A stretch of DNA of 49,826 bases from Alistipes sp. (GTDB taxonomy: Bacteria > Bacteroidota > Bacteroidia > Bacteroidales > Rikenellaceae). Positions 13,929-49,804 of the stretch are shown in pieces; the first letter of the stretch is position 1, and each line of letters begins with the position of its first letter. The stretch spans positions 1 to 49,826 of the forward strand of contig JAFQAN010000009.1 in NCBI GenBank assembly GCA_017416915.1, given 5' to 3'. The notes beneath the pieces are model-generated. The model ran no database searches. It worked only from the letters and a program-made list of their open reading frames with translations, and was not told the origin of the DNA. Made by a program: the position numbers and the translations under genes.

Positions 13929-14567
13929 ATGGACCAGACGCAACGTATGATAGCGCTGCTTGGACGTATGCGCAAGCAGATGAACGGTGCGGTGGCTGAG
14001 AGTATGGCAACGCACAACCAGAAGTATGGGCTTAACTATGGAGTGAGCATCGCCACAGTGCGCGAGATTGTCGCCGAGGAGCCTAAGGACTACGCCTTTG
14101 CCAAGTACCTCTACACGCAGCAGGTGCGCGAACTTAAACTCGCGGCTTGTCATATCGCCGACCCTAAGTGTTTGGATACTGCCGAGTTCGCCTTCTGGGC
14201 GCGAGGTATCGTCAATGCCGAGCTTGCCGAGGAGATAGCCTTTGCGTTGCTGTCGAAGATTTATGATATCAACTCGCTGATGGGCGTATGGTGTACCGAG
14301 AGTAGCGAGATGGTGGCATACGCGGCGCTTATGGCAGCTGCACGTAATGAGCGTACCACCTCCGAGGTGGCGTTTATCGCTGTGGAGAATGCTATGCGCG
14401 CCAACCCCGAGTCGGAGTATATCGCCCACGGCGTTGTTACTCTGTTGTGCTACGTCGCCTCACGCGATATGTCCGTAAAGGTGGGAATACCTGTGGTAAT
14501 GGAGCGCATCGCCCCCTCAAAAGTTAAGGGTATAGTCGAAGAGGAACTCTCGTGGCGCTTGGCGTGA
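13929..14567 (+). CDS. AlkD-like HEAT-repeat protein (putative DNA alkylation repair)
   Basis: A 212-residue all-helical protein. NYGVSIATVREIVAE (about 36-50) and the series of amphipathic helices around KYLYTQQVRELKLAACHIADP resemble the AlkD superfamily of HEAT-like DNA glycosylases and their Bacteroidetes relatives. I do not see a clearly conserved catalytic Trp/Asp pair, so enzymatic activity is unproven. The last three codons and stop (R-L-A-stop) are formed by the 5' end of the dispersed GCTTGGCGT element that begins at 14557. Confidence 0.6.
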   Translation: MDQTQRMIALLGRMRKQMNGAVAESMATHNQKYGLNYGVSIATVREIVAEEPKDYAFAKYLYTQQVRELKLAACHIADPKCLDTAEFAFWARGIVNAELAEEIAFALLSKIYDINSLMGVWCTESSEMVAYAALMAAARNERTTSEVAFIAVENAMRANPESEYIAHGVVTLLCYVASRDMSVKVGIPVVMERIAPSKVKGIVEEELSWRLA

Positions 14568-14682
14568 TAGCGGCGCATCAGCGCCGCCTCAATCATTGGG
14601 CTGAATGGAATGTACGCACAGTACTATCCATCCAGCCCAATCTCTTTATCGGCGGTACTGCTGCACCACTCTGACGCCAAGC
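14557..14682 (+). repeat. GCTTGGCGT element, copy A1 (canonical type)
   Basis: A 126-bp element with inverted ends GCTTGGCGT and ACGCCAAGC. Hairpin 1 is GCGGCGC-ATCA-GCGCCGC. Hairpin 2 has the stem ATTGGGCTG/CAGCCCAAT and the apex GTACGCACAGTAC. It is almost identical to copies at 34654 and 49679. It starts inside the coding end of the AlkD-like gene and supplies its stop codon. Confidence 0.85.
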
Positions 14683-14683
14683 C

Positions 14684-14809
14684 CTTGTCGTGATAGCGGC
14701 GCATCTACTGCCGCTAACGAATTATCTCACCAATGGGCAGTACGCCTTAGTACAGCCCATCGGCTCGAAATTCGCCGAGCGTTGTAGCTGCACCACTCTG
14801 ACGCCAAGC
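14684..14809 (+). repeat. GCTTGGCGT element, copy A2 (divergent)
   Basis: A 126-bp copy in direct tandem with A1. The left end is CTTGTCGTGATAG and the right end GACGCCAAGC. Hairpin 1 is AGCGGC/GCCGCT and hairpin 2 is built on CCAATGGGC/GCCCATCGG with apex GTACGCCTTAGTAC. The stems differ from A1 yet remain paired. Confidence 0.8.
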
Positions 14810-14865
14810 AATTTTTGTGATAAGAGGCTATCTGCGGCACACCTCCAAAGTGTAGTACCGTAGGC
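14810..14865 (+). repeat. Degenerate partial GCTTGGCGT element (A3)
   Basis: TTGTGATAAGAGGC followed by TCTGCGGCACA and AGTGTAGTACCGTA matches the first half of other copies (compare the copy at 49551) and stops at the end of the convergent thioredoxin gene. The second half is missing. Confidence 0.5.
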
Positions 14866-15195
14866 TTAGTAGCTGCCAACGAATTGGTGTTGTCTTACGA
14901 TGTTACACAGTCGGTCATAGGGGATAACGCCACTCTCGCGCCATAGCATCTGCGACTCCCTGAAAAGTAGTAGCGTGGGGACAGAGACGATATTATAACG
15001 GCGCACAAGGTCGCGATGCGAGGCGTCCGAAATGTCTATGCGCACCACGTTAATATCGGTCATCGACTGCGCTAAACGCTCGATGGAGGGCTGCATAGCA
15101 CGGCAAGGACCGCACCACGTAGCGTAAAAATCTATAAGTGTTAGCTGCTCGGAAGCCACCAAGTTGTCGAAATCGGCTGTTGTCATAACGTACAT
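14866..15195 (-). CDS. Thioredoxin
   Basis: A single-domain thioredoxin of 109 residues. FYATWCGPCRAM carries the redox pair C28/C31, and the cis-proline loop is SVPTLLLF near residues 74-81. There is no signal peptide, so it is cytoplasmic. The open frame extends to a TTG at 15216, but the ATG at 15195 (MYVMTT) or 15186 (MTT) gives the normal family length; 15195 is chosen. It is the last gene of a minus-strand operon behind radA, 56 bases downstream of it. Confidence 0.92.
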   Translation of the reverse strand: MYVMTTADFDNLVASEQLTLIDFYATWCGPCRAMQPSIERLAQSMTDINVVRIDISDASHRDLVRRYNIVSVPTLLLFRESQMLWRESGVIPYDRLCNIVRQHQFVGSY

Positions 15196-20247: not shown

Positions 20248-21156
20248 ATGGTAAAACCTACTCTTTTGGTTCTGGCTGCGGGTATGGGCTCGCGCTATGG
20301 CTCACTGAAACAGATGGACGGCGTAGGTCCTAATGGTGAGGCTATTATTGACTATTCGGTATATGATGCTATCCGTGCGGGCTTCGGCAAGGTGGTATTC
20401 GTCATCCGCCACTCGTTTGCCGATGACTTCTGCGAGGTCTTCAATGCCGAGCGCTTCGGACATAAGATTGCAGTTGAGTATGTCTATCAGGAGCTGGATT
20501 GTCTGCCCGAGGGCTTCTCTCTGCCCGAGGAGCGTCAGAAGCCGTGGGGTACAAACCACGCTGTGATGATGGCGGCAAATGTTATCAACGAGCCGTTTGC
20601 CGTTATCAATGCCGACGACTTCTACGGTAGAGATGGCTACGCTGTTATTGGCAACTATCTCTCGCAGTTGGAGGGTTCGCGTGGAAGGTACTGTATGGTG
20701 GGCTATGAGGTGTGCAAGACCCTCTCGGAGAATGGCACCGTATCGCGTGGTGTATGCACCGTAGATGGCGAGGGCAACCTTACAAGTATGGTTGAGCGCA
20801 CTAAGATTGAGCGTGTCAATGGCACTGTCGTATTCCACGACAATGGCGACGATGAGCCTCTGGCAGAGAATACTCCTGTGTCGATGAACCTCTTTGGCTT
20901 CACTCCCGACTACTTCGAACACTCTGAGGCATACTTCAAAGAGTTCCTCGCAGCAAATATCGAAAACCTCAAATCGGAGTTTTTTATCCCCCTTATGGTA
21001 AACAAGGTTATTACCGATGGTACTGCGACGATGCGAGTACTATCGACCACAGCAAACTGGTTTGGCGTAACCTACAAGGAGGATAAGCCTCAGCTTATGG
21101 CAAAAATCGAAGAACTCATAGAGGCGGGAGAGTATCCGCGAAACCTCTGGGCGTAG
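20248..21156 (+). CDS. Sugar-phosphate nucleotidyltransferase family protein
   Basis: A 302-residue GT-A fold protein. The nucleotide-binding motif LAAGMGSRYGSLKQ starts at residue 9, with KPWGTNHAVMMA near 92-103 and the metal-binding INADDFYG near 113-120. These match glucose-1-phosphate uridylyltransferase-like enzymes, which make NDP-sugars for the envelope, although the precise sugar and nucleotide are unclear and no pathway genes adjoin. The final codons (W-A-stop) overlap the start of a degenerate GCTTGGCGT-type element. Confidence 0.85.
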   Translation: MVKPTLLVLAAGMGSRYGSLKQMDGVGPNGEAIIDYSVYDAIRAGFGKVVFVIRHSFADDFCEVFNAERFGHKIAVEYVYQELDCLPEGFSLPEERQKPWGTNHAVMMAANVINEPFAVINADDFYGRDGYAVIGNYLSQLEGSRGRYCMVGYEVCKTLSENGTVSRGVCTVDGEGNLTSMVERTKIERVNGTVVFHDNGDDEPLAENTPVSMNLFGFTPDYFEHSEAYFKEFLAANIENLKSEFFIPLMVNKVITDGTATMRVLSTTANWFGVTYKEDKPQLMAKIEELIEAGEYPRNLWA

Positions 21157-21236
21157 CGATAGCAGCGCATTGGCGCCACCTTGTAATTGGGCTGAATGGG
21201 GTAATATCCCGTTCAGCCCAATCTCTTTATTGGCGG
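21151..21236 (+). repeat. Degenerate GCTTGGCGT element, copy B
   Basis: GCGTAGCGATAGCAGCGCAT, then GGCGCCACC, then hairpin 2 as ATTGGGCTGAA/TTCAGCCCAAT, and TCTCTTTATTGGCGG align with the canonical copies. The left GCTTG, the apical GTAC...GTAC and the right ACGCCAAGC are lost. It overlaps the stop codon of the nucleotidyltransferase gene. Confidence 0.65.
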
Positions 21237-21250
21237 ACTTTGTGCGAGGT

Positions 21251-21380
21251 TGGGAATGACTGGGAAAGACTGGGAAAGACTGGGAAAGACTGGGAAAGAC
21301 TGAGAAAGGCTGAGAAAGACTGAGAACGACTGTGTTTTTCTTATTCTCTAACTTCCCTAACTTCTCTAATCTCCCTAATC
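21251..21380 (+). repeat. 10-bp and 9-bp tandem repeats between convergent genes
   Basis: Eight exact-phase copies of a 10-bp unit (TGGGAAAGAC and variants) fill 21251-21330. After TGTGTTTTTCTTAT come four copies of a 9-bp unit (TCTCTAACT and variants) at 21345-21380. The first block is purine-rich and the second pyrimidine-rich, so the two can pair imperfectly as one long hairpin. The same arrangement with related sequence follows elements C and D. Confidence 0.85.
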
Positions 21381-23373: not shown

Positions 23374-23410
23374 AAATTAATGTAGTTTAGATATTTATAT
23401 TGTTTGTTTT

Positions 23411-23514
23411 CTTGTTTCTGTCGTCTGTTTCAGCCCTCTGTTTCTGTCGTCTGTCTCAGTCGCCTGTTTCTGTCGTCTGTCTCAGTCGTCTGTCTCAGCC
23501 CACTGTTTTGCTGC
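23411..23514. repeat. 13-bp tandem repeat upstream of dsbD
   Basis: Eight contiguous 13-bp units of consensus TCTGTYTCWGYCS (first CTTGTTTCTGTCG, last ACTGTTTTGCTGC). It occupies nearly the whole gap between the end of the AraC gene and the start of dsbD, so it is transcribed or lies in the dsbD upstream region. Copy number could vary by slippage. Confidence 0.9.
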
Positions 23515-23522
23515 ACTCTTTG

Positions 23523-29627: not shown

Positions 29628-31382
29628 ATGAAGAATCTTTTTAAGTTGAGCGCATTGCTCGTTGTTGCAGTGATGACCCTTACGGGCTGTAACTGCTTCA
29701 AGAAGATGGCAAAGCATCAGGACGATGTTAAGCTTACCTGCACCCCCGAGGTGTTGGTGTTGAACAACGGTCGTGTTGAGGCTGATGTTAAGGTTACCTT
29801 CCCCGAGGAGTACTTCAACAAGAAGGCTGTGTTGAAGGTTACCCCTGTGATGGTATTCGAGGGTGGCGAGGTAGCAGGTACTACTCAGTACTTCCAGGGT
29901 ACTAAGGTAGATGACAACTACACAGTAATCTCTAAGGACAACGGTGGCGAATACACTATGCACGTGTCGTTCCCCTATGACGACCGTATGGAGTGCAGCG
30001 AGTTGCAGCTCCGCGCCGAGGTTAAGTGTCCTAAGGGTAAGTGCAAGGAGTTCACTTTGGTAAATCTCAACGATGGTGCTATCCCCACCAAGGAGCAGGC
30101 TGAGATCTTGGCTGCTGGTGGTGCCGAGGCAGATATGTTGAAGCGTCAGTTCGGTTTGACTATCGCTCAGGGTGTTAATACTATGCAGCGTGACCTCGAC
30201 TATGCAGCTGCTATGCAGCCTATGGAGTCGGGCTACAAGAACGTTATTACCGAGGTTACCAAGGCTAACTATATGTACGCTATCAACTCTTCAACCTTGT
30301 CATCGAAGGCTAAGAAGAGCGACGAGCTTACCGCATTCCAGCAGAAGGCTGCCGAGCAGATGTCTAACGACCGCATCAAGCAGAACATCTACGTTAATGG
30401 TTACGCATCGCCCGATGGTCCCGAGAAGTTCAACGATAAGCTCTCGGCTAAGCGTAGCGAGTCTGGTAAGAAGGCTGCCGAGCAGCTCCTCAAGGAGGTA
30501 GGTCTGCCCCTTGACGCCGCATCGTATGGCGAGGACTGGGAGGGCTTCAAGGAGCTTGTTGCTGCTTCGGACATCGAGGATAAGGAGCTTATCCTTTCGG
30601 TGTTGAACAGCTACGAGTCATCTTCGGAGCGCGAGAACCAGATTAAGAATATGTCTCAGGTATTCGAGGCTTTGAAGAACGACATTCTTCCTCAGTTGCG
30701 TCGTGCGCAGCTCGTAAATAGCTCGGATATCACAGGCAAGACCGATGACGAGATGGTTGCTTTTGTTCGCAATGGTCAGTACGATAAGCTCGACGAGAAG
30801 GAGATGCTTCACATCGCATCTACCGACAAGCTCAGCGAGCGCGAGCAGATTGCCGTTTTGGAGAAGGCTGCTAAGGAGTATAAGAGCGCTACGGCATACA
30901 ACAACCTTGGTGTAGCTTATGCTAAGGCTGGCGAGACTGCTAAGGCTGATGAGGCTTTTGCTGCTGCTGTTAAGGCTGGTGGCAACGCATCGGAGATTAA
31001 CAACAACCTCGCATTGGTAAACCTTATGAAGGGCGATACGGCTGCTGCTAAGAGCTACGTTGCTGCTGCTACTGCCGAGACTAAGGCGCTGGCTGCTGCT
31101 GCCGAGGGTAACTATGCCTCAGCACAGTCGCAGCTCGACGGCTACAACGCTGCTGTTGCTGCCGCAATGAACGCAGACTACACCGCTGCAAAGCAGTTTA
31201 TCGCTAACGACACCACTGCAAAGGCTGACTACTTGCGCGCTATCATCGCCGTTAAGCAGGGCGATATGGCAGCAGCTACTGCACAGCTCAACAGCGCTAT
31301 CGCTAAGGAGCCTGCGTATGCAGAGCGTTGCAAGAAGGATGTTAATTTGAGAGAGTATATCGGCAAGGACATCATCTTGTAG
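29628..31382 (+). CDS. OmpA-domain and TPR lipoprotein
   Basis: A 584-residue lipoprotein (lipobox LTGC, Cys21). The N-terminal half is beta-rich and includes VKLTCTPEVLVLNNGRVEAD. An OmpA-like peptidoglycan-binding region lies around 255-300 (NIYVNGYASPDGPEKFNDKLSAKRS), with the usual Asp and Arg positions. From about 415 there are TPR-like helices (ATAYNNLGVAYAKAGETAKADEAF) in an alanine-rich C terminus. It probably tethers the outer membrane to peptidoglycan or scaffolds envelope proteins. Codon use is strongly biased, suggesting high expression. The G of its TAG stop is the first base of element C. Confidence 0.82.
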   Translation: MKNLFKLSALLVVAVMTLTGCNCFKKMAKHQDDVKLTCTPEVLVLNNGRVEADVKVTFPEEYFNKKAVLKVTPVMVFEGGEVAGTTQYFQGTKVDDNYTVISKDNGGEYTMHVSFPYDDRMECSELQLRAEVKCPKGKCKEFTLVNLNDGAIPTKEQAEILAAGGAEADMLKRQFGLTIAQGVNTMQRDLDYAAAMQPMESGYKNVITEVTKANYMYAINSSTLSSKAKKSDELTAFQQKAAEQMSNDRIKQNIYVNGYASPDGPEKFNDKLSAKRSESGKKAAEQLLKEVGLPLDAASYGEDWEGFKELVAASDIEDKELILSVLNSYESSSERENQIKNMSQVFEALKNDILPQLRRAQLVNSSDITGKTDDEMVAFVRNGQYDKLDEKEMLHIASTDKLSEREQIAVLEKAAKEYKSATAYNNLGVAYAKAGETAKADEAFAAAVKAGGNASEINNNLALVNLMKGDTAAAKSYVAAATAETKALAAAAEGNYASAQSQLDGYNAAVAAAMNADYTAAKQFIANDTTAKADYLRAIIAVKQGDMAAATAQLNSAIAKEPAYAERCKKDVNLREYIGKDIIL

Positions 31383-31510
31383 CTTGGCGTGATAGCGGCG
31401 CATCAGCGTCCTATCCCAAAAAGTAGAGTGCCGTGGGCTGTACGTTTTAGTACTATCCCACGGCACTCTCTTTTGCGATAGAACACTGCTGCACCACTCT
31501 GACGCCAAGC
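31382..31510 (+). repeat. GCTTGGCGT element, copy C (divergent)
   Basis: A 129-bp element with perfect inverted ends GCTTGGCGT/ACGCCAAGC. Hairpin 2 has the stem GAGTGCCGTGGG/CCCACGGCACTC, unlike the canonical stem but fully paired, and keeps the apex GTACGTTTTAGTAC. Hairpin 1 is weaker here (GCGGCGC against GCGTCC). Confidence 0.85.
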
Positions 31511-31532
31511 TGCCACGCACGGCCCCGCACAG

Positions 31533-31783
31533 CTGAGAATGCCTGAGAATGCCTGAGAACGCCTGGGTTTTTCAGCAGTCTCGTCGTCCCGTCGTCTCGT
31601 CGTCCCGTCGTCTCGCGGTCTCGTAGTCCCGTCGTCTTGTTGGCGCGCTTCCCAGTCATTCCCAGTCTTTCTCAGTCTTTCCCAGTCAATCGCGCGCCCC
31701 AGCCAATCGCGCGCCTCAGTCAATCGCGCGCCTCAGCCTCCCGCGCCCCTCAGCCTCCCGCGCCCCAGCCAATCGCGCGCCAC
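31533..31783 (+). repeat. Composite tandem-repeat tail after element C
   Basis: Four ordered blocks: three 10-bp units CTGAGAAYGC (31533-31562) followed by TTTTTCAGC; eight 8-bp units GTCYCGTC and variants (31578-31641); four 10-bp units CCCAGTCATT and variants (31651-31690), roughly inverted to the first block; and six 17-bp units such as CAGCCAATCGCGCGCCT (31683-31783). The first three blocks recur in the same order at 34802-34997. No gene is credible here, although frames stay open. From 31784 to 31913 I see only pyrimidine-rich sequence. Confidence 0.85.
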
Positions 31784-31913
31784 CCAGCCGTTCCCTTAAA
31801 AAACGCCCGCTTCTCGCTCTCCGCTCCTTACCTCTCACCCCCCCCCTCATGCCTCGCTGCTCAGCTTGCACTTTGCGCCATATCGCCTTTCTCCTACACT
31901 TTTTTTACTTTTT

Positions 31914-31945
31914 TTTGCGAGAATAAAAAATTTTTCATATCTTCG
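31914..31945 (+). promoter_or_regulatory. Near-consensus promoter of the FN3 lipoprotein gene
   Basis: TTTG (31914-31917), 20 bases, then TATCTTCG (31938-31945, one mismatch). The leader would be about 120 bases and AT-rich. Confidence 0.6.
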
Positions 31946-32072
31946 CGTATGCAATTTGGATTAATGTGTTCCGATTTTATGAGACGACATAATTTTGGGA
32001 GATTTTAAGCGTTATTTTAATTGCCAAAAAATAAACTTTATAACAATATTTATTAACTAATTATCAAACAAA

Positions 32073-33512
32073 ATGAAAAAGTTTTTTTCTTTGATGGTAG
32101 CATTTGCTACTTTGTTTGCTTTCACTTCTTGCGGTGAGGGTGAGGAGACTCCCGAGCCTGTTGCTCCTACCAAGTGCTCGAAGCCTTCGTTGAAGGTTAC
32201 TGAGAAGGGCGATGACTACTTCACTATTGAGTGGAAGACTGTTGCTGGTGCTGCAAGCTACTTCGTAGATTGCGGTGGTAACACTCAGAGCATTACTGAG
32301 CCTACGGTTACCTACACTGATGTTGCTCCTGGCGAGTATGTAGTACGTGTAATGGCTGTTGCTGGCGAGGGCTATACCGACTCTGATTATGCAGAGATTA
32401 AGGTAAAGGTTGTTCCCCAAGATACTAAGGACTGGTTTACTCAGACCGTTGAGCTTGGTGAGGATGCTGAGAAAAATATTACCAGGAGTAATGCATTTTA
32501 CTCTACTTGGAAGGGTAAGGGTATTGTAGCTATCAAGTGCGGTGTGTTTGAGGCAGCTGCTTCGAGCAATATGTCTGAAGCTGATCTCGAGGGCTATCTG
32601 CAAGCAGCTGAGGAGAAGTATGTAACTGCTGCAAATAGCGAGGAGGGCTGCACTTTGGTATGGGGTCCCCTTCAGGCTGCTACCGAGTGGGAGATTGTTG
32701 CTATTGCTGAGAATGAGTTTGGCTATAAGCTCGTTCAGCGTCACACAATCGAGACTGAGCCTGCCGCTATGGCAGATTACGTAGCTGAGTGGCTTGGCAC
32801 TTGGGAGGTAACCGCTGATAAGACTGTGGAGTACTATCAGTATGAGGACGAGGAGACTGGAATGGAGTACCTTGGCGATCGCGTTTTGGAGGAGCCTTAC
32901 ACTACGACTTGGGAGATTCAGCACTACCCCGTATATTCTGATGCTGTCGTTATTAATGGTGTATCGCGCGTATTCCCCGAGGACGGCTTCCCCGCTTTGG
33001 CACGTGTTCTCGAAGGTGGTAAGTTGGAGTTGGTAGCTGGTATCCAGGTTGCTGCAGCTGACCAAGGTGGTTATGTTCCTATGTGGGTTCCTACGTTTGC
33101 CGTAGCTGAGATGGATGTGTATCGTGTTCCAGTCGATATTCCGTTCTATGATTTCGGTGTAGATGAGAATGGCGAGCTTAACTACTTTGCTGCTTACACA
33201 TTTACTCTTAATGGAACTACTGCGGTATCTGCTCCTGGTGAGATGCCATTGACTGCAACAGATAATGAGACTAAAGAAACGACTGAGGTAACTGGTATTG
33301 TTGATAGCTTCGATATCTATGCAGTAGGTCAGCAGGGAGTTGCAACTTATGGCAATTTCACAGCGGGTGAGACTACCAAGGTTAATACTGGTACTATGAC
33401 CATGGTTAAGAGCCAGGCTGCTCCCGCAATCAGCGCTAAGATGGTTGGCGAGAAGAAGAACATCGTTCTTATGCCCTTTAAGAAGAGCAACAAGTGCGAG
33501 TTTACGTACTAA
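32073..33512 (+). CDS. FN3-domain surface lipoprotein
   Basis: A 479-residue lipoprotein with lipobox FTSC (Cys20). Right after the cysteine comes an acidic run (GEGEETPEP), resembling the signals that send Bacteroidetes lipoproteins to the cell surface. A fibronectin type III-like domain occupies about 35-115 (LKVTEKGDDYFTIEWKTVAGA...YVVRVMAVAGEGYTDSDY). The remaining 350 residues match no fold I recognise; they are beta-rich and may bind a ligand. It is monocistronic, with its own promoter and terminator. Confidence 0.72.
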   Translation: MKKFFSLMVAFATLFAFTSCGEGEETPEPVAPTKCSKPSLKVTEKGDDYFTIEWKTVAGAASYFVDCGGNTQSITEPTVTYTDVAPGEYVVRVMAVAGEGYTDSDYAEIKVKVVPQDTKDWFTQTVELGEDAEKNITRSNAFYSTWKGKGIVAIKCGVFEAAASSNMSEADLEGYLQAAEEKYVTAANSEEGCTLVWGPLQAATEWEIVAIAENEFGYKLVQRHTIETEPAAMADYVAEWLGTWEVTADKTVEYYQYEDEETGMEYLGDRVLEEPYTTTWEIQHYPVYSDAVVINGVSRVFPEDGFPALARVLEGGKLELVAGIQVAAADQGGYVPMWVPTFAVAEMDVYRVPVDIPFYDFGVDENGELNYFAAYTFTLNGTTAVSAPGEMPLTATDNETKETTEVTGIVDSFDIYAVGQQGVATYGNFTAGETTKVNTGTMTMVKSQAAPAISAKMVGEKKNIVLMPFKKSNKCEFTY

Positions 33513-33534
33513 TTAACTCTATATAAGTAAGTAT

Positions 33535-33568
33535 GGCGCGGCAGTCTATCTGCTGCGCCTATTTTTTT
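33535..33568 (+). terminator. Intrinsic terminator after the FN3 lipoprotein gene
   Basis: GGCGCGGCAG (33535-33544) pairs with CTGCTGCGCC (33550-33559) with one G-T pair around the loop TCTAT, followed by TATTTTTTT. Confidence 0.9.
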
Positions 33569-33597
33569 ATTGTGCGATGCAAAAAAGTGGGGTAGTT

Positions 33598-33629
33598 GTT
33601 GGCTAAGTGAGGAAAAATGTCTATATTTG
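33598..33629 (+). promoter_or_regulatory. Promoter of deoC
   Basis: GTTG (33598-33601), 20 bases, then TATATTTG (33622-33629). The leader is about 15 bases to the ATG at 33651. Confidence 0.6.
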
Positions 33630-33650
33630 TGATTACAAAAATGTGTGATT

Positions 33651-34526
33651 ATGGATTACGCTAAGGAGTTAGAGAAATATGCGCCTGCGCATACCGACGC
33701 TCAGGTCGCCAAGGAGGTCGCCAAGATTAAGGTGGCAGCCAACCGCAATGACAATGCCGATGTCTATAAGTTTTGCTACTCGGCAATAGACCTTACCACG
33801 CTGTCGTGCAACGACTCGCAGGAGTCGGTACAGGCATTTGCACGTAAGGCGGTGGAGTTCTACGAGAAGTACCCCAACATACCCAACGTGGCATCTATCT
33901 GCGTCTATCCGCCCTTTGTCGAGACCGTAGGCTTGGAGATTGACGGTACGCCTATGCGCATAACAAGCGTGGCAGGCGCATTCCCCGCATCGCAGAGCTT
34001 CATCGAGGTCAAGGCGTTGGAGGTGGCTATGGCCATCGAAAATGGTGCCGACGAGGTAGATATAGTCCTCAACCCAGGTATGATGCTTGCAGGACATACC
34101 GACGAGGCAGCAAGCGAGGTGGAGTTGCTTAGAGAGGAGGCGCGCGATGTGGTGTTGAAGGTTATCATCGAGTCGGGCGCACTGAAAACTCCTGAGCTGA
34201 TACGTCGCGCATCGTTGGTGTCGATGTTTGCGGGTGCAGACTTCGTGAAGACCTCGACAGGTAAGATTGACGTTGCCGCAACACCCGAGGCAGCCTTTGT
34301 GATGTGCCACGCCATCAAGGACTACTACAATATGACAGGTCGTAAGGTGGGCTTCAAGGCGGCAGGTGGTGTGCGCACCCCCGAGGATGCAGCCCTCTAC
34401 TACACCATCGTAGAGGAGGTATTGGGCGAGGAGTGGCTAACAACGGATTTATTCCGTATCGGCGCGTCGTCAGCAGCCAACAACCTTATTTCAGCGATTG
34501 AGGATAAGGATATCAAGTATTATTAG
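33651..34526 (+). CDS. deoC: Deoxyribose-phosphate aldolase
   Basis: A 291-residue class I aldolase that splits 2-deoxyribose 5-phosphate into glyceraldehyde 3-phosphate and acetaldehyde. The Schiff-base lysine lies in GADFVKTSTGK, the proton-relay lysine in GRKVGFKAAGGVRTPEDA, and ENGADEVDIVLNPG forms the characteristic barrel strand. The length is that of the longer DeoC subgroup. A GTG at 33645 would add two residues; the ATG at 33651 is preferred. Its TAG stop ends at the first base of element D1. Confidence 0.96.
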   Translation: MDYAKELEKYAPAHTDAQVAKEVAKIKVAANRNDNADVYKFCYSAIDLTTLSCNDSQESVQAFARKAVEFYEKYPNIPNVASICVYPPFVETVGLEIDGTPMRITSVAGAFPASQSFIEVKALEVAMAIENGADEVDIVLNPGMMLAGHTDEAASEVELLREEARDVVLKVIIESGALKTPELIRRASLVSMFAGADFVKTSTGKIDVAATPEAAFVMCHAIKDYYNMTGRKVGFKAAGGVRTPEDAALYYTIVEEVLGEEWLTTDLFRIGASSAANNLISAIEDKDIKYY

Positions 34527-34652
34527 CTTGGCGTGATAAGGGGTCGATTGCGTCCCCTAACAAAAATGCCGTCAATGGGACGTACGTTCAAGTACTACCC
34601 ATCGACGGCATTTTTGCCGAGTGTAGCACTCGGCACCCTTCTGACACCAAGC
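34526..34652 (+). repeat. GCTTGGCGT element, copy D1 (divergent)
   Basis: A 127-bp element with ends GCTTGGCGT and ACACCAAGC (one change). Hairpin 1 is AGGGG/CCCCT. Hairpin 2 uses AAAAATGCCGTC/GACGGCATTTTT with apex GTACGTTCAAGTAC, and a third hairpin GCCGAGTG-TAG-CACTCGGC is unique to this copy. Confidence 0.85.
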
Positions 34653-34653
34653 T

Positions 34654-34779
34654 GCTTGATGTGATAGCGGCGCATCAGCGCCGCCTCAATCATTGGGCTG
34701 AATGGAATGTACGCTCAGTACTATCCATCCAGCCCAATCTCTTTATCGGCGACACTGCTGCACCACTCTGACGCCAAGC
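34654..34779 (+). repeat. GCTTGGCGT element, copy D2 (canonical type)
   Basis: A 126-bp copy in direct tandem with D1. The left end is GCTTGATGT and the right end ACGCCAAGC. The interior is almost identical to the copies at 14557 and 49679 (apex GTACGCTCAGTAC). Confidence 0.85.
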
Positions 34780-34801
34780 TGCCTCGCGCAGCCACGCACA
34801 A

Positions 34802-34997
34802 CTGAGAACGCCTGAGAATGCCTGAGAATACCTGAGAACGCCTGAGTTTTTCAGCGGTCTCGCAGTCCCGCAGTTCCGCTGTCCCGTCGTCCCGTGGTCT
34901 CGTAGTCTCGTCGTCTCGTCGTCTTGTTGGCGCGCCTCCCAGTCATTCCCAGTCATTCCCAGGCTTTCTCAGTCTTTCTCAGCCATTCTCAGTCAAT
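34802..34997 (+). repeat. Composite tandem-repeat tail after element D
   Basis: Four 10-bp units CTGAGAAYGC (34802-34841), then CTGAGTTTTTCAGCG; nine 8-bp units GTCYCGTC and variants (34857-34928); and six 10-bp units CCCAGTCATT/CTCAGTCTTT (34938-34997). Block order and joining sequences (TTTTTCAGC, TTGTTGGCGCGC, CAATCGCGCGCC) match the tail of element C. The rest of the gap up to 35084 holds nothing recognisable. Confidence 0.85.
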
Positions 34998-35084
34998 CGC
35001 GCGCCTCTCGGTTGTTTTCAGCTGTGTGAGGCTGCTGCCACCATTTTCTGCGCCGCCCTTGCTCGGTTTGTTTGTTCGCTGATA

Positions 35085-35118
35085 AAACACAAAAGGCGAC
35101 CCGAAGGTCGCCTTTTGT
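35085..35118 (-). terminator. Intrinsic terminator of the rpmB-rpmG-DUF4295 operon
   Basis: ACAAAAGGCGACC and GGTCGCCTTTTGT form a perfect 13-bp stem around CGAA. On the minus strand it runs into TTTTGTGTTTTA. Confidence 0.92.
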
Positions 35119-38996: not shown

Positions 38997-39176
38997 TTAC
39001 ATTTTGCTTGTCGGGTTGTGAAAGTATGTATTTCGAGGTGTTTTTTGCTTGCCTGTGAGTCGCGGATATTGTTGCATTAGTTTGGCGTAATTTAAAAAAA
39101 GCCTCTCAAACCCCATTTGTCGTCTTCGCCCTTTAGGTCCTCACTTGTTTATGCTTTGCGGGTCATCATCACGTAT

Positions 39177-39890
39177 GGCGGGTAGGTTTTACCTACCCGT
39201 GCGGTTGTTGGTCTCTGTGTTGTTATGTCTGACTACCAATACTTTGCGGGTAGGTTTTACCTACCCGTGTGGTTGTGGGTCCCCTTTGTTATGTATGACT
39301 GCCAGTACTTTGTGGGTAGGTTTTTACCTACCCGTACAGTTGTGAGTCTCTGTGTTGTTATGTATGACTACCAATACTTCGCAGGTAGGTTTTTGCCTAC
39401 CCGTGCGGATGATTGATGTTTGTTTGCAGAAGTTATCTTCGGCTGTGTGCGCTTCTTTTTTTGCGTTCCTCAACTTTGTGGGTAGGTTTTTACCTACCCG
39501 TGTGGTTGTGAGTGCCAATTGTTATGTATGACTGCCGATGCTTTGCGGGTAGGTTTTTACCTACCCGTGCGGTTGTGAGTGCTATTTGTTATGTATGACT
39601 ACCAGTACTTTGTGTGTAGGTTTTTGCCTACCCGTGCGGTTGTGAGTGCCATTTGTTATGTATGGCTACCAGTACTTTGCGGGTGGGTTTTTACCTACCC
39701 GTGCGGTTGTGAGTCCCCTTTGTTATGTATGATTGCCGATGCTTTGTGGGTAGGTTTTTACCTACCCGTGCAGTTGTGAGTACCAATTGTTATGTATGAC
39801 TGCCAATACTTTGCGGGTGGGTTTTTACCTACCCGCACAGTTGTGAGTCTCTGTGTTGTTATGTATGACTACCAATACAAAGTGGGTATT
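39177..39890. repeat. 67-bp tandem array of hairpins
   Basis: Ten copies of a unit containing the palindrome GGGTAGGTTTTTACCTACCC or a near match. The hairpins start at 39180, 39248, 39314, 39383, 39480, 39547, 39614, 39681, 39748 and 39815, and an eleventh half-copy sits near 39884. The period is 66-69 bp, except one of 97 bp. Between hairpins the sequence is also conserved (GTGCGGTTGTGAGT, TTGTTATGTATGACTRCC, ARTACTTTGCG). No stable reading frame crosses it. Confidence 0.95.
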
Positions 39891-39913
39891 TAATATCTCT
39901 TGCTTAATCTGCA

Positions 39914-39947
39914 AAAAATAATACGGGCTGGTAAAACCTACCCGTAT
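39914..39947 (-). terminator. Terminator of the pyrD-cinA-pncB-HTH operon
   Basis: ATACGGG (39921-39927) and CCCGTAT (39941-39947) form the stem, extended by TGG/CC. On the minus strand it is followed by TATTTTTT. Its core resembles the hairpin of the adjacent 67-bp array. Confidence 0.7.
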
Positions 39948-48270: not shown

Positions 48271-49536
48271 ATGAAGAAAATCCTATTTTTTGGTCTTGCG
48301 GCGTTGTGTGCCGTAGGCTGTAAGAGTGAGCCTAAGCCCCTCGAAGAGTTTTCGCTGGATGGCCCAGTATCGCCCGACTACTACTGCCAGATGGCAAATG
48401 GTGAGGTGTATGATGATGCCAAGGCGGAGTTTGATACGCTCTCTTATGCGTTGGGTATGAATCTTGGTATTAGCATCAACGTCCAGCAGGCAGATATGGA
48501 TCTCGATGCCGACATAATCGCCAAGATGCTCCGCAGCGAGGCGTTGAATACAAACATCGATAATAAGGGCATCAATCAAAATCGCAAGCATCTTAACGAG
48601 TTCTCGGCAGAGCGAGTGCGCCCCTTTATGATGCAGAAGCGTATGATGGCCTATGTGGAGACCGACCAGCCCGATACCATCGAGCAGCCTCTACTTTATG
48701 ACGATACATACCGCCGCGACGAGGTGTCTGAGTGGTTTGGACGTGATATGGCGGAGTATATCCGCTCGACGCAGGTCCCCGTAAATCTAACGTGGTTGAT
48801 GGCGGGCTACGAAGATTCGAAGAGTGTAAAGTCGGTAGAGGAGATTGACTCGCTGATGGCTCTTACCACTACCGAGATGCGCGCTGCTTTGGACCCCTAT
48901 TTCCGTGCAGAGCTTCCCAAGAAGTCGCGTGAGGCATCTGAGGCTTGGCTTGCGGAGGTCGCTACAAAGCCCGATGTTCAGCCCTTGGTAGTTGGTGCCG
49001 ATACACTCTACTACCGCATTGATGAGGCTGGTGGTGAGGTTAAGCCCGCAGACGGTCGTGATACTATCACGATGCGTTTTGAGATGTTTACACGTCGTGG
49101 TACACTTGTAGAATCTACCGTGCAGCGTGGCGCTGACCGTCGCGATGAGGTTGCTAAGCGCGTCGAGAAGTTGCAGCAGGATACTCTCATTGACCCCGCA
49201 AGACGTGATGAGCAGATTGAGGCTCTCGATAAGTCGGTGGACTTTGCCTTCGAGCCTAATATTATGCTTAGCCGCTTCACGGTGCGTGGCGCTATCGAGG
49301 CGTTGAAGCAGGTGGGCGAGGGCGGTCGCATCACTATCTGGATGCCGTCATCATTGGCTTATGGTCCTCGTGGCAACCGTGCAGTATTGCCCAACGAGGC
49401 TATCGTGATGTCTGTACGTTTGGTTGATGTAGTACCCTACATATCTACTGATGCCGCTAAGGTAACGCCCAAGTTTGTCGAGCCTAAGGAGGTAGTTCCT
49501 GGCAAGCCTTCGATAAAGCGAGAGGGGGTAAAGTAG
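48271..49536 (+). CDS. Long FKBP-like lipoprotein, paralogue of the preceding gene
   Basis: A 421-residue lipoprotein (lipobox CAVGC, Cys17). It has the same order as its neighbour but longer: a helical part (about 50-230) with DTLSYALGMNLGISINVQQAD and an FKBP domain (about 265-385) interrupted by an insertion rich in Arg, Asp and Lys (RGADRRDEVAKRVEKLQQD). GEGGRITIWMPSSLAYGPRG and NEAIVMSVRLVDVV close the domain. A proline/lysine tail follows. The pair probably arose by tandem duplication and assists folding of periplasmic or outer-membrane proteins. Element E1 begins 14 bases after its stop. Confidence 0.82.
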   Translation: MKKILFFGLAALCAVGCKSEPKPLEEFSLDGPVSPDYYCQMANGEVYDDAKAEFDTLSYALGMNLGISINVQQADMDLDADIIAKMLRSEALNTNIDNKGINQNRKHLNEFSAERVRPFMMQKRMMAYVETDQPDTIEQPLLYDDTYRRDEVSEWFGRDMAEYIRSTQVPVNLTWLMAGYEDSKSVKSVEEIDSLMALTTTEMRAALDPYFRAELPKKSREASEAWLAEVATKPDVQPLVVGADTLYYRIDEAGGEVKPADGRDTITMRFEMFTRRGTLVESTVQRGADRRDEVAKRVEKLQQDTLIDPARRDEQIEALDKSVDFAFEPNIMLSRFTVRGAIEALKQVGEGGRITIWMPSSLAYGPRGNRAVLPNEAIVMSVRLVDVVPYISTDAAKVTPKFVEPKEVVPGKPSIKREGVK

Positions 49537-49550
49537 TTCTTACAATATCC

Positions 49551-49678
49551 GCTTGGCGTGATAAGCCGCAATCTGCGGCACATCCCAATTGTAAAGCACC
49601 ACGGGCTGTACGTATTAGTACTATCCCGTGGTGCTTTCATTTGCGATGTACCACATCTCACGACTTCTCCCACCAAGC
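49551..49678 (+). repeat. GCTTGGCGT element, copy E1 (divergent)
   Basis: A 128-bp element. The left end is GCTTGGCGTGATAAG and the right end CACCAAGC. Hairpin 1 is GCCGCA-ATC-TGCGGC, and hairpin 2 is AAAGCACCACGGG/CCCGTGGTGCTTT with apex GTACGTATTAGTAC. Confidence 0.85.
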
Positions 49679-49804
49679 CCTTGGCGTGATAGCGGCGCAT
49701 CAGCGCCGCCTCAATCATTGGGCTGAATGGAATGTACGCTCAGTACTATCCATCCAGCCCAATCTCTTTATCGGCGGTACTGCTGCACCACTCTGACGCC
49801 AAGC
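49679..49804 (+). repeat. GCTTGGCGT element, copy E2 (canonical type)
   Basis: A 126-bp copy in tandem with E1, nearly identical to the copies at 14557 and 34654. The window ends 22 bases later in GCTGAGAACGA, which looks like the first unit of the 10-bp tail seen after copies C and D. Confidence 0.85.

Follow-up and report, generated by a model that had tools for sequence, protein, structure and literature searches.

The window analysed here, a stretch of 49,826 nucleotides, is contig C25 of the Alistipes sp. genome G000 (1.97 Mb, 42 contigs, 93% complete). Along its upper strand, referred to below as the listed strand (its complement being the lower strand), lie seven full copies of a repeat of 126-129 bp, together with degenerate copies and arrays of short tandem units (Table 1). 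The seven full copies had all been located correctly in a preliminary description of this DNA and are scored at 74-133 bits by a covariance model trained partly on these same copies, and the conserved ends and GTACG..AGTAC apex that it ascribed to them are present. The two degenerate copies that it reported at 14810 and 21151 are recognisable by eye, but the covariance model is silent on both at E<=0.01. When each full copy is compared with dinucleotide shuffles of itself, 0/200 fold equally well (z -4.8 to -11.2). The tail at 31511..31800 is built from 10-mers (GCCCCGCACA, CTGAGAATGC), 8-mers (GTCTCGTC), inverted 10-mers (TTCCCAGTCA) and 17-mers (TCGCGCGCCTCAGTCAA). In the tails at 31511-31700 and 34790-35010, purine-rich 10-mers are followed by their inverse, and a second long hairpin is possible there. 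The window also holds a 67-bp tandem array at 39173-39915 (8 registered 175-nt matches), apparently unrelated to the hairpin family, and a 13-bp tandem array (TGTTTCTGTCGTC-like) at 23400-23519, near a gene end.

Table 1. Copies of the repeat and their tandem tails in the window (strand as listed).
Feature	Position	Strand	Remarks
Full copy, type A	14557..14682	+	Contains the TGA stop (GCGTGA) of ORF 13929-14567
Full copy, type D	14683..14809	+	Abuts the copy at 14557..14682
Degenerate copy, type F left end (AATTTTTGTGATAA)	14810..14930	+	By eye; right boundary approximate
Degenerate copy, type A	21151..21250	+	At the stop codon of ORF 20248-21156; inner hairpin retained; by eye; boundaries approximate
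10-bp tandem tail, ACTGGGAAAG units	21259..21338	+	
Full copy, type E	31382..31510	+	Starts on the final base of the TAG stop of ORF 29628-31382
Tail after the type E copy	31511..31800	+	Boundaries approximate
Full copy, type B	34526..34652	+	Starts on the final base of the TAG stop of ORF 33645-34526
Full copy, type A	34654..34779	+	
Tail, laid out as 31511-31800 minus the 17-mer array	34780..35010	+	Boundaries approximate
Full copy, type C	49551..49678	+	14 nt past the stop of ORF 48271-49536
Full copy, type A	49679..49804	+	Contig ends 22 nt on, within the tail

The same repeat is dispersed throughout the genome. With the covariance model R1 at least 150 matches in 114 clusters are found in G000 (150 of 876 first-look candidates scored), and 150 model matches in a genome of 1.97 Mb exclude a chance origin. 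The clusters comprise 82 single, 29 double, 2 triple and 1 quadruple, none of them with mixed strands; a single type A copy used as a BLAST query returns 46 matches across G000, some partial. Several subfamilies (A-F and more) differ in their stems, including even the terminal stem (type F ends in AATTTTTGT..ACAAAAATT). Many contigs of G000 start or end in or beside a copy (C12, C14, C17, C18, C21, C22, C25, C28, C30, C33, C38, C39 and C41); the repeats therefore seem to break the assembly, and the copy number is probably underestimated.

Arrays in G000 often continue into 10-bp tandem units and their inverse, with a strong 10-bp period within 150 nt of the array in 39/55 cases, compared with 0/58 upstream controls. 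A 10-bp period is found at 0/38 arrays of the genome G040, where a 9-bp period occurs at 5/38, which makes the 10-bp tail a feature of G000; it may reflect a process separate from the hairpin element. At the right ends of three G000 arrays (L174, L181 and L186) a shared neighbour of another kind, aatctcgcttgggagcgtggcgatagcgcgcag, takes the place of the usual tail.

The preliminary description proposed two internal hairpins in each copy. The corresponding local inverted repeats exist, those of its hairpin 1 being used in the best listed-strand fold of some copies (49551, 34526), and in type B copies (34526) local arm hairpins appear in most folds. The main structure is instead a single end-to-end hairpin in which the left arm pairs with the right, and in folding it is clearest on the complement of the strand that had been folded before. 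On the lower strand it consists of a 9-bp terminal stem, a 3x3 loop (CAG/ATC), a 9-bp stem, a small loop, a variable stem and the GTAC apex, the small internal loop being AGAT/AGAT in many copies and readable as two G-A mismatches. C-A mismatches of the listed strand become G-U pairs on the complement, where the hairpin is nearly continuous. For 23 copies, a consensus fold of the listed strand by RNAalifold (-8.5 kcal/mol) is limited to 7 pairs around the apex, compared with 35 pairs at -44.0 kcal/mol for the complement (19 copies, four type B copies omitted).

Pairing is kept while the stems change, which was the central claim of the preliminary description and which larger sets of copies strongly support. 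In an alignment of 19 copies, which leaves out four type B copies whose arms also fold locally (one of them, L016, is back in the later alignment), 94.6% of cells are paired and 22/36 pairs show two-sided changes; on none of five measures is this matched in 500 shuffles (0/500), and pairing falls to 26-47% when the partner is slid. A second set of 22 copies spans four families (7 from G000, 6 from G040, the five loci L061, L070, L071, L075 and L076, and 4 from genomes of three other families), and 23/26 of its pairs change on both sides, again with 0/500 shuffles and with slid controls at 34-50%; in both sets the alignments under test also supplied the structures, so that the slid control looks more favourable than it should, and relatedness among copies inflates the shuffle control. 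Selection on the structure is supported by these comparisons.

Which of the two strands is kept paired was assessed on 149 copies found with a model of the complement. Removal of the lower-scoring opposite-strand match at each place reduced 168 matches to 89 in G000 and 102 to 65 in G040, and removal of copies shorter than 116 nt (four and one, respectively) left 85 and 64. The complement folds better in 81/85 and 64/64 of these copies with RNA parameters (145/149) and in 84/85 and 62/64 with DNA parameters (146/149), with a median difference between strands of about 17 kcal/mol. G·U pairs number 479 on the complement versus 39 on the listed strand in G000, and 354 versus 37 in G040. A strand-neutral test considered only Watson-Crick pairs formed in the folds of both strands, using ten subfamily consensuses that cover 110 of 148 distinct copies. 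One-sided transitions within subfamilies there gave 46 lower-strand G·U versus 15 A·C (binomial p 8.8e-5), beside 48 other one-sided mismatches, and the two-sided changes comprised 47 Watson-Crick, 8 G·U and 4 broken pairs. Leading strands show an excess of C-to-T change, which would act in the opposite direction, so that selection is the likelier cause of the lower-strand G·U excess. All 35 copies folded from other genera likewise fold better on the matched strand, this strand having been picked by the model match (among them L260 duplicates L259, and three copies of G214 are cut by contig ends).

The position of the copies relative to genes, their replication-strand bias and the tandem tails are additions to the preliminary description. 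Gene calling followed a simple longest-ORF rule, in stretches sampled because they contain copies. Across 21 such stretches of G000 (450 kb), the gene upstream of 58 arrays, each of 1-4 copies, is co-oriented in 48 cases, opposite in 9 and not called in 1, and 38/58 arrays begin between -14 and +18 nt from a co-oriented stop codon, often overlapping it; common overlap offsets are -1 (the last base of TAG or TAA) and -11 (the TGA in GTGATA). Similar placement is seen in 20 stretches of G040 (400 kb), where 33/38 arrays are co-oriented with the upstream gene and 29/38 begin between -14 and +10 nt from its stop. The next called gene is convergent for 32/55 arrays in G000 and 22/37 in G040. Outside the genus placement is weaker: a co-oriented stop is found between -14 and +14 nt for 12 of 31 copies (35 less four, dropped as second array copies or a repeated contig end), the upstream gene, where one is called, is co-oriented in 18/30 and on the other strand in 12/30, and 3 copies are flagged inside a called ORF.

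Features of transcription terminators accompany this placement. At least 5 T in the 8 nt after the stem, read in the direction of the upstream gene, are present in 42/85 copies of G000 and 28/64 of G040, compared with 9/447 shuffled. T-tracts are as common in the opposite direction (31/85 and 34/64). Bacteroidetes-type promoter motifs reading into the arrays show no clear excess, at 4/55 versus 1.8 in shuffled sequence (G000) and 4/38 versus 3.4 (G040).

Orientation is nearly uniform within contigs. Clusters on the majority strand of their contig number 108/114 in G000, 76/85 in G040 (121 of 127 matches used, after removal of six same-place opposite-strand ones), 56/62 in G041 and 60/71 in G058, the last two counted on the best 150 matches only. 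This corresponds to 89-95% in the first three genomes and 85% in G058, whereas coin-toss means are 79, 53, 43 and 52, and the maxima in 10,000 draws 92, 65, 53 and 62. In G058 the observed 60 is thus below the coin-toss maximum of 62 and was reached in 36/20,000 draws, while 56 in G041 was reached in 0/20,000. Gene ends alone do not explain the orientation, because only 212/408 called ORFs in the sampled stretches of G000 and 190/334 in those of G040 are on the element strand (defined as that of the majority of arrays in a stretch).

Both GC skew and the orientation of rpoB match the element strand, so that the leading strand is most likely the listed one, with the well-folding strand as its template. 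GC skew is positive on the element strand in 16/21 stretches of G000 and 18/20 of G040, and rpoB has the same orientation as the elements of its contig in G000 (C1), G040 (C4) and G041 (C15); the rpoB contig of G058 carries one cluster each way. Orientation thus follows replication, probably that of the leading strand. According to PMC5371416, the lagging template is normally where single-stranded DNA is most available, and in most sedentary integrons (25/30) the attC bottom strand is on the leading-strand template. The position of the hairpin appears to depart from a simple lagging-template model and to resemble that of attC sites in most sedentary integrons.

The element is patchily present. 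The wider search of Bacteroidetes genomes that the preliminary description had proposed gives matches in 46/72 congeners and none in 26 (with at most 28 scored matches per genome). Relatives identified through a neighbouring protein (the closest at 75-84% identity) are MAGs, mostly labelled Alistipes sp. or Rikenellaceae bacterium, and many come from ruminant hindgut. With a wider model, R2, 19 genomes besides G000 are positive among 393 Bacteroidales genomes at E<=1e-4, one from another genus of the same family and the others from ten further families, four of the 19 having supplied training sequences; model R1 finds 4 genomes besides G000 among 295 of the same order. Plasmids and phages gave no match to one G352-type and one type A copy used as queries, and viral contigs none to two exact apex patterns.

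Terminal stems are largely genome-specific among the copies listed, with GCTTGGCG in G000 and ATTTGTTG in G040. Behind the orthologue of gene 29628-31382 a copy directly follows the stop codon in 10 of 80 named loci, the best match being on the same strand, and the copies viewed at this site have terminal stems unlike those of G000, for instance TAATTTCTTGTGATA. Several other loci have a plain terminator-like hairpin and no copy there (judged by eye on 28 of the 80 loci), and in the same 28 apparent truncated copies at L064, L069 and L080 run from the inner hairpin into a T-tract; L069 is also among the 10 copy-bearing loci, at 29 bits. In G000, the copy and its tail fill most of the interval between this gene and the upstream region of the next. 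In the one locus compared a clean empty site was not found, the relative G004 being rearranged at this gene.

No family with which the element was compared fits it, in agreement with the preliminary description, which knew of no named family. In Rfam, a search of the whole window gave only a tRNA above the gathering threshold, and evalue-mode searches of five loci and of window 31000-35100 gave only miRNA and L20-leader matches far below threshold; membership of an Rfam family is rejected, the element being unmatched above threshold. In the literature searched no description of the hairpin family was recognised, though one may well exist.

Among known kinds, the REP/REPIN class comes nearest. 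PMC3116915 describes REPINs as having two conserved inverted ends, between which a variable spacer stays paired through compensatory changes, and PMC3733652 describes REPs as dispersed extragenic palindromes that often lie downstream of genes, can supply a stop codon and have G-T pairs in their stems. The present element shares these traits, including two conserved inverted ends and a variable paired spacer in one hairpin. It differs in its near-uniform orientation within contigs, in the clear pairing of one strand and in having, from ends read by eye, no GTAG/CGTC tag conserved across species: many G000 copies carry CGTC on their lower strand (GCGTCAGA), G040 has mostly TTGTCAGA and other families differ. 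Since neither of the features that define the class was found, a conserved tag in the ends read or the transposase (PF01797, sought in the 47 genus carriers), the element is not filed as a REP/REPIN member.

The R box of attC sites has the pattern RYYYAAC..GTTRRRY, which the ends in G000 and G040 do not fit, and membership among attC sites is rejected. In folding the element resembles attC through its bottom-strand hairpin, conserved paired arms, unpaired spacer and variable tip, but it forms no cassette arrays, and its strand difference of about 17 kcal/mol compares with about 2 reported for mobile-integron attC in PMC5371416. Terminal inverted repeats are shared with DDE-type MITEs. RU-1 corresponds to ERIC and forms a long hairpin. 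According to PMC2759123, RU-1 (127 bp) and other enterobacterial RU elements are alike in size class, intergenic position and multiple copies; they are taxonomically separate. BrickBuilt of Porphyromonas gingivalis, also from Bacteroidales, combines an intergenic inverted-repeat element with a minisatellite, but has 23-nt tandem units and 19 copies in one strain by the account in PMC4596501, unlike the structured hairpin of 126-129 bp with tails of 8-10 bp units in G000. Palindromic candidate structured RNAs of Bacteroidetes, such as HMP2_4205 (132 bp), are similar in size, palindromy, phylum and a predicted terminator, according to PMC8040213.

No transposase had been visible in the window, and domain searches extend this. 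Y1_Tnp/RAYT (PF01797), the usual mobiliser of such palindromes, was found in 0/47 match-bearing genomes of the genus including G000, most of which are incomplete MAGs; it occurs in 1/76 genus genomes (G122, outside the element scan), with search controls positive in 5/14. Mobilisation by RAYT/Y1 is rejected for the 47 carriers, in which PF01797 was not found. RVT_1 (PF00078) was not found in G000 or in the carriers G017, G051, G058 and G072, and is present in 24/73 genomes, the carriers G040 and G041 among them; reverse-transcriptase movement is rejected for G000, where PF00078 was not found. PF00589 is represented by 3 genes in G000 and 2 in G040, compatible with housekeeping enzymes of XerC/D type.

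These observations are drawn together by a reading to which we give about even chances. In it, the element would be a mobile hairpin of a non-autonomous, REPIN-like type, with one folded strand being recognised close to the replication fork, and would serve secondarily as a terminator. The lower strand would fold into the form that is recognised, and new copies would be inserted at passing forks or close by, in this genus chiefly right after the stop codons of leading-strand genes, or beside an existing copy, giving rise to head-to-tail arrays. The mobilising factor, which may act in trans as the preliminary description supposed, may be encoded by the host or be some other factor. Once in place, the inner hairpin and its T-rich flank could act as a transcription terminator, a role for which decayed copies may be kept. 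Structure, strand choice, placement, strand uniformity within contigs and patchy occurrence are results of the computation, while mobility, the replication strand concerned, recognition as single-stranded DNA and terminator activity are inferred. Mobility is supported by the at least 150 copies, the largely genome-specific terminal stems and the copies at 10/80 orthologous sites. The same reading is weakened because neither a transposition event or intermediate nor a clean empty site was seen and no target duplication was evident by eye in five G352 copies, because placement at stops is looser outside the genus and strand uniformity weakest in G058, and because the well-folding strand appears to lie on the leading template although the lagging template is normally freest. 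T-tracts moreover run in both directions, and the gene ends rest on the longest-ORF rule. A broader extension is decidedly more tentative: the elements would form a Bacteroidales-wide class of mobile DNA driven by neither IS200/RAYT, reverse transcriptase nor integrons, in which the hairpin is recognised as one folded strand, inserted with fork polarity (behind stops in relatives of Alistipes) and spread and homogenised within each genome by perhaps a housekeeping enzyme.

Covariation, selection on one strand, placement at stop codons and strand uniformity are an unusual combination in one repeat family, in whose genus carriers RAYT, which usually mobilises palindromes of this kind, was not found. 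If mobile, the element would allow a direct study of the way in which dispersed palindromes spread through bacterial genomes in the absence of RAYT, and of the meeting of replication polarity with the ends of transcription. The covariance models can annotate many intergenic regions of gut bacteria, as the 114 clusters in G000 illustrate.

Part of the evidence could be read in terms of RNA. The lower strand might be transcribed as a hairpin RNA of about 126 nt, antisense to the upstream gene or within a convergent 3' UTR, and act in trans or on the neighbouring mRNA; retention of lower-strand G-U pairs through one-sided changes is typical of RNA, and the frequent convergent next gene would suit it. 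We nevertheless regard such an RNA as unlikely, given that no clear promoter excess reads into the arrays, that transcription would run in varying directions relative to neighbours (with the upstream gene opposite in 12/30 non-genus copies), that a replication-strand bias is unexpected of an RNA gene and that DNA energies prefer the same strand. Nor does it seem probable that the copies are host terminators or 3'-end mRNA stabilisers only, multiplied by gene conversion, with mobility past or absent. On such an account there is no obvious reason for 108/114 clusters to keep to one replication strand, for pairing to be favoured on the strand that is not the mRNA, or for outer stems and loops to be conserved beyond the inner hairpin, even though it would accommodate the location behind stop codons, the T-rich flanks in both directions and, by eye, both the apparent truncated relics with T-tracts (L064, L069, L080) and the terminator-like hairpins at the same site in relatives that have no copy.

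Two further accounts are less probable still. An integron-like site, with a bottom-strand attC-type hairpin used by a tyrosine recombinase, would share the anatomy (terminal stem, unpaired spacer, second stem, variable tip, bottom-strand folding) and the strand that sedentary attC mostly has, its bottom strand being the leading template as seems to be the case here (PMC5371416). It is very unlikely when neither GCTTGGC..GCCAAGC nor ATTTGTT..AACAAAT follows the R-box pattern, the PF00589 genes (3 in G000, 2 in G040) are compatible with XerC/D-type enzymes, and copies are dispersed and form no gene-cassette arrays. Similarly, we give little credence to a classical MITE moved by a DDE transposase acting on terminal inverted repeats: such repeats, short length and high copy number are all found, but no target duplication is evident by eye in five G352 copies, the whole arm is kept paired beyond the ends, and the strand bias is strong. 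The mobile hairpin recognised as a folded strand remains the reading that we prefer.

Two minor observations come from copies outside the genus. Those at L254-L260, all in G352, are very similar to one another, 113 bp long and bounded by extended GAGACT..AGTCTC ends, apparently as the result of a recent expansion. At L233, L234, L238 and L252, in other genera, the element is immediately followed by another hairpin (ggttgtgtcaaaac..gttttgacacaacc-like), perhaps the terminator of the neighbouring gene.
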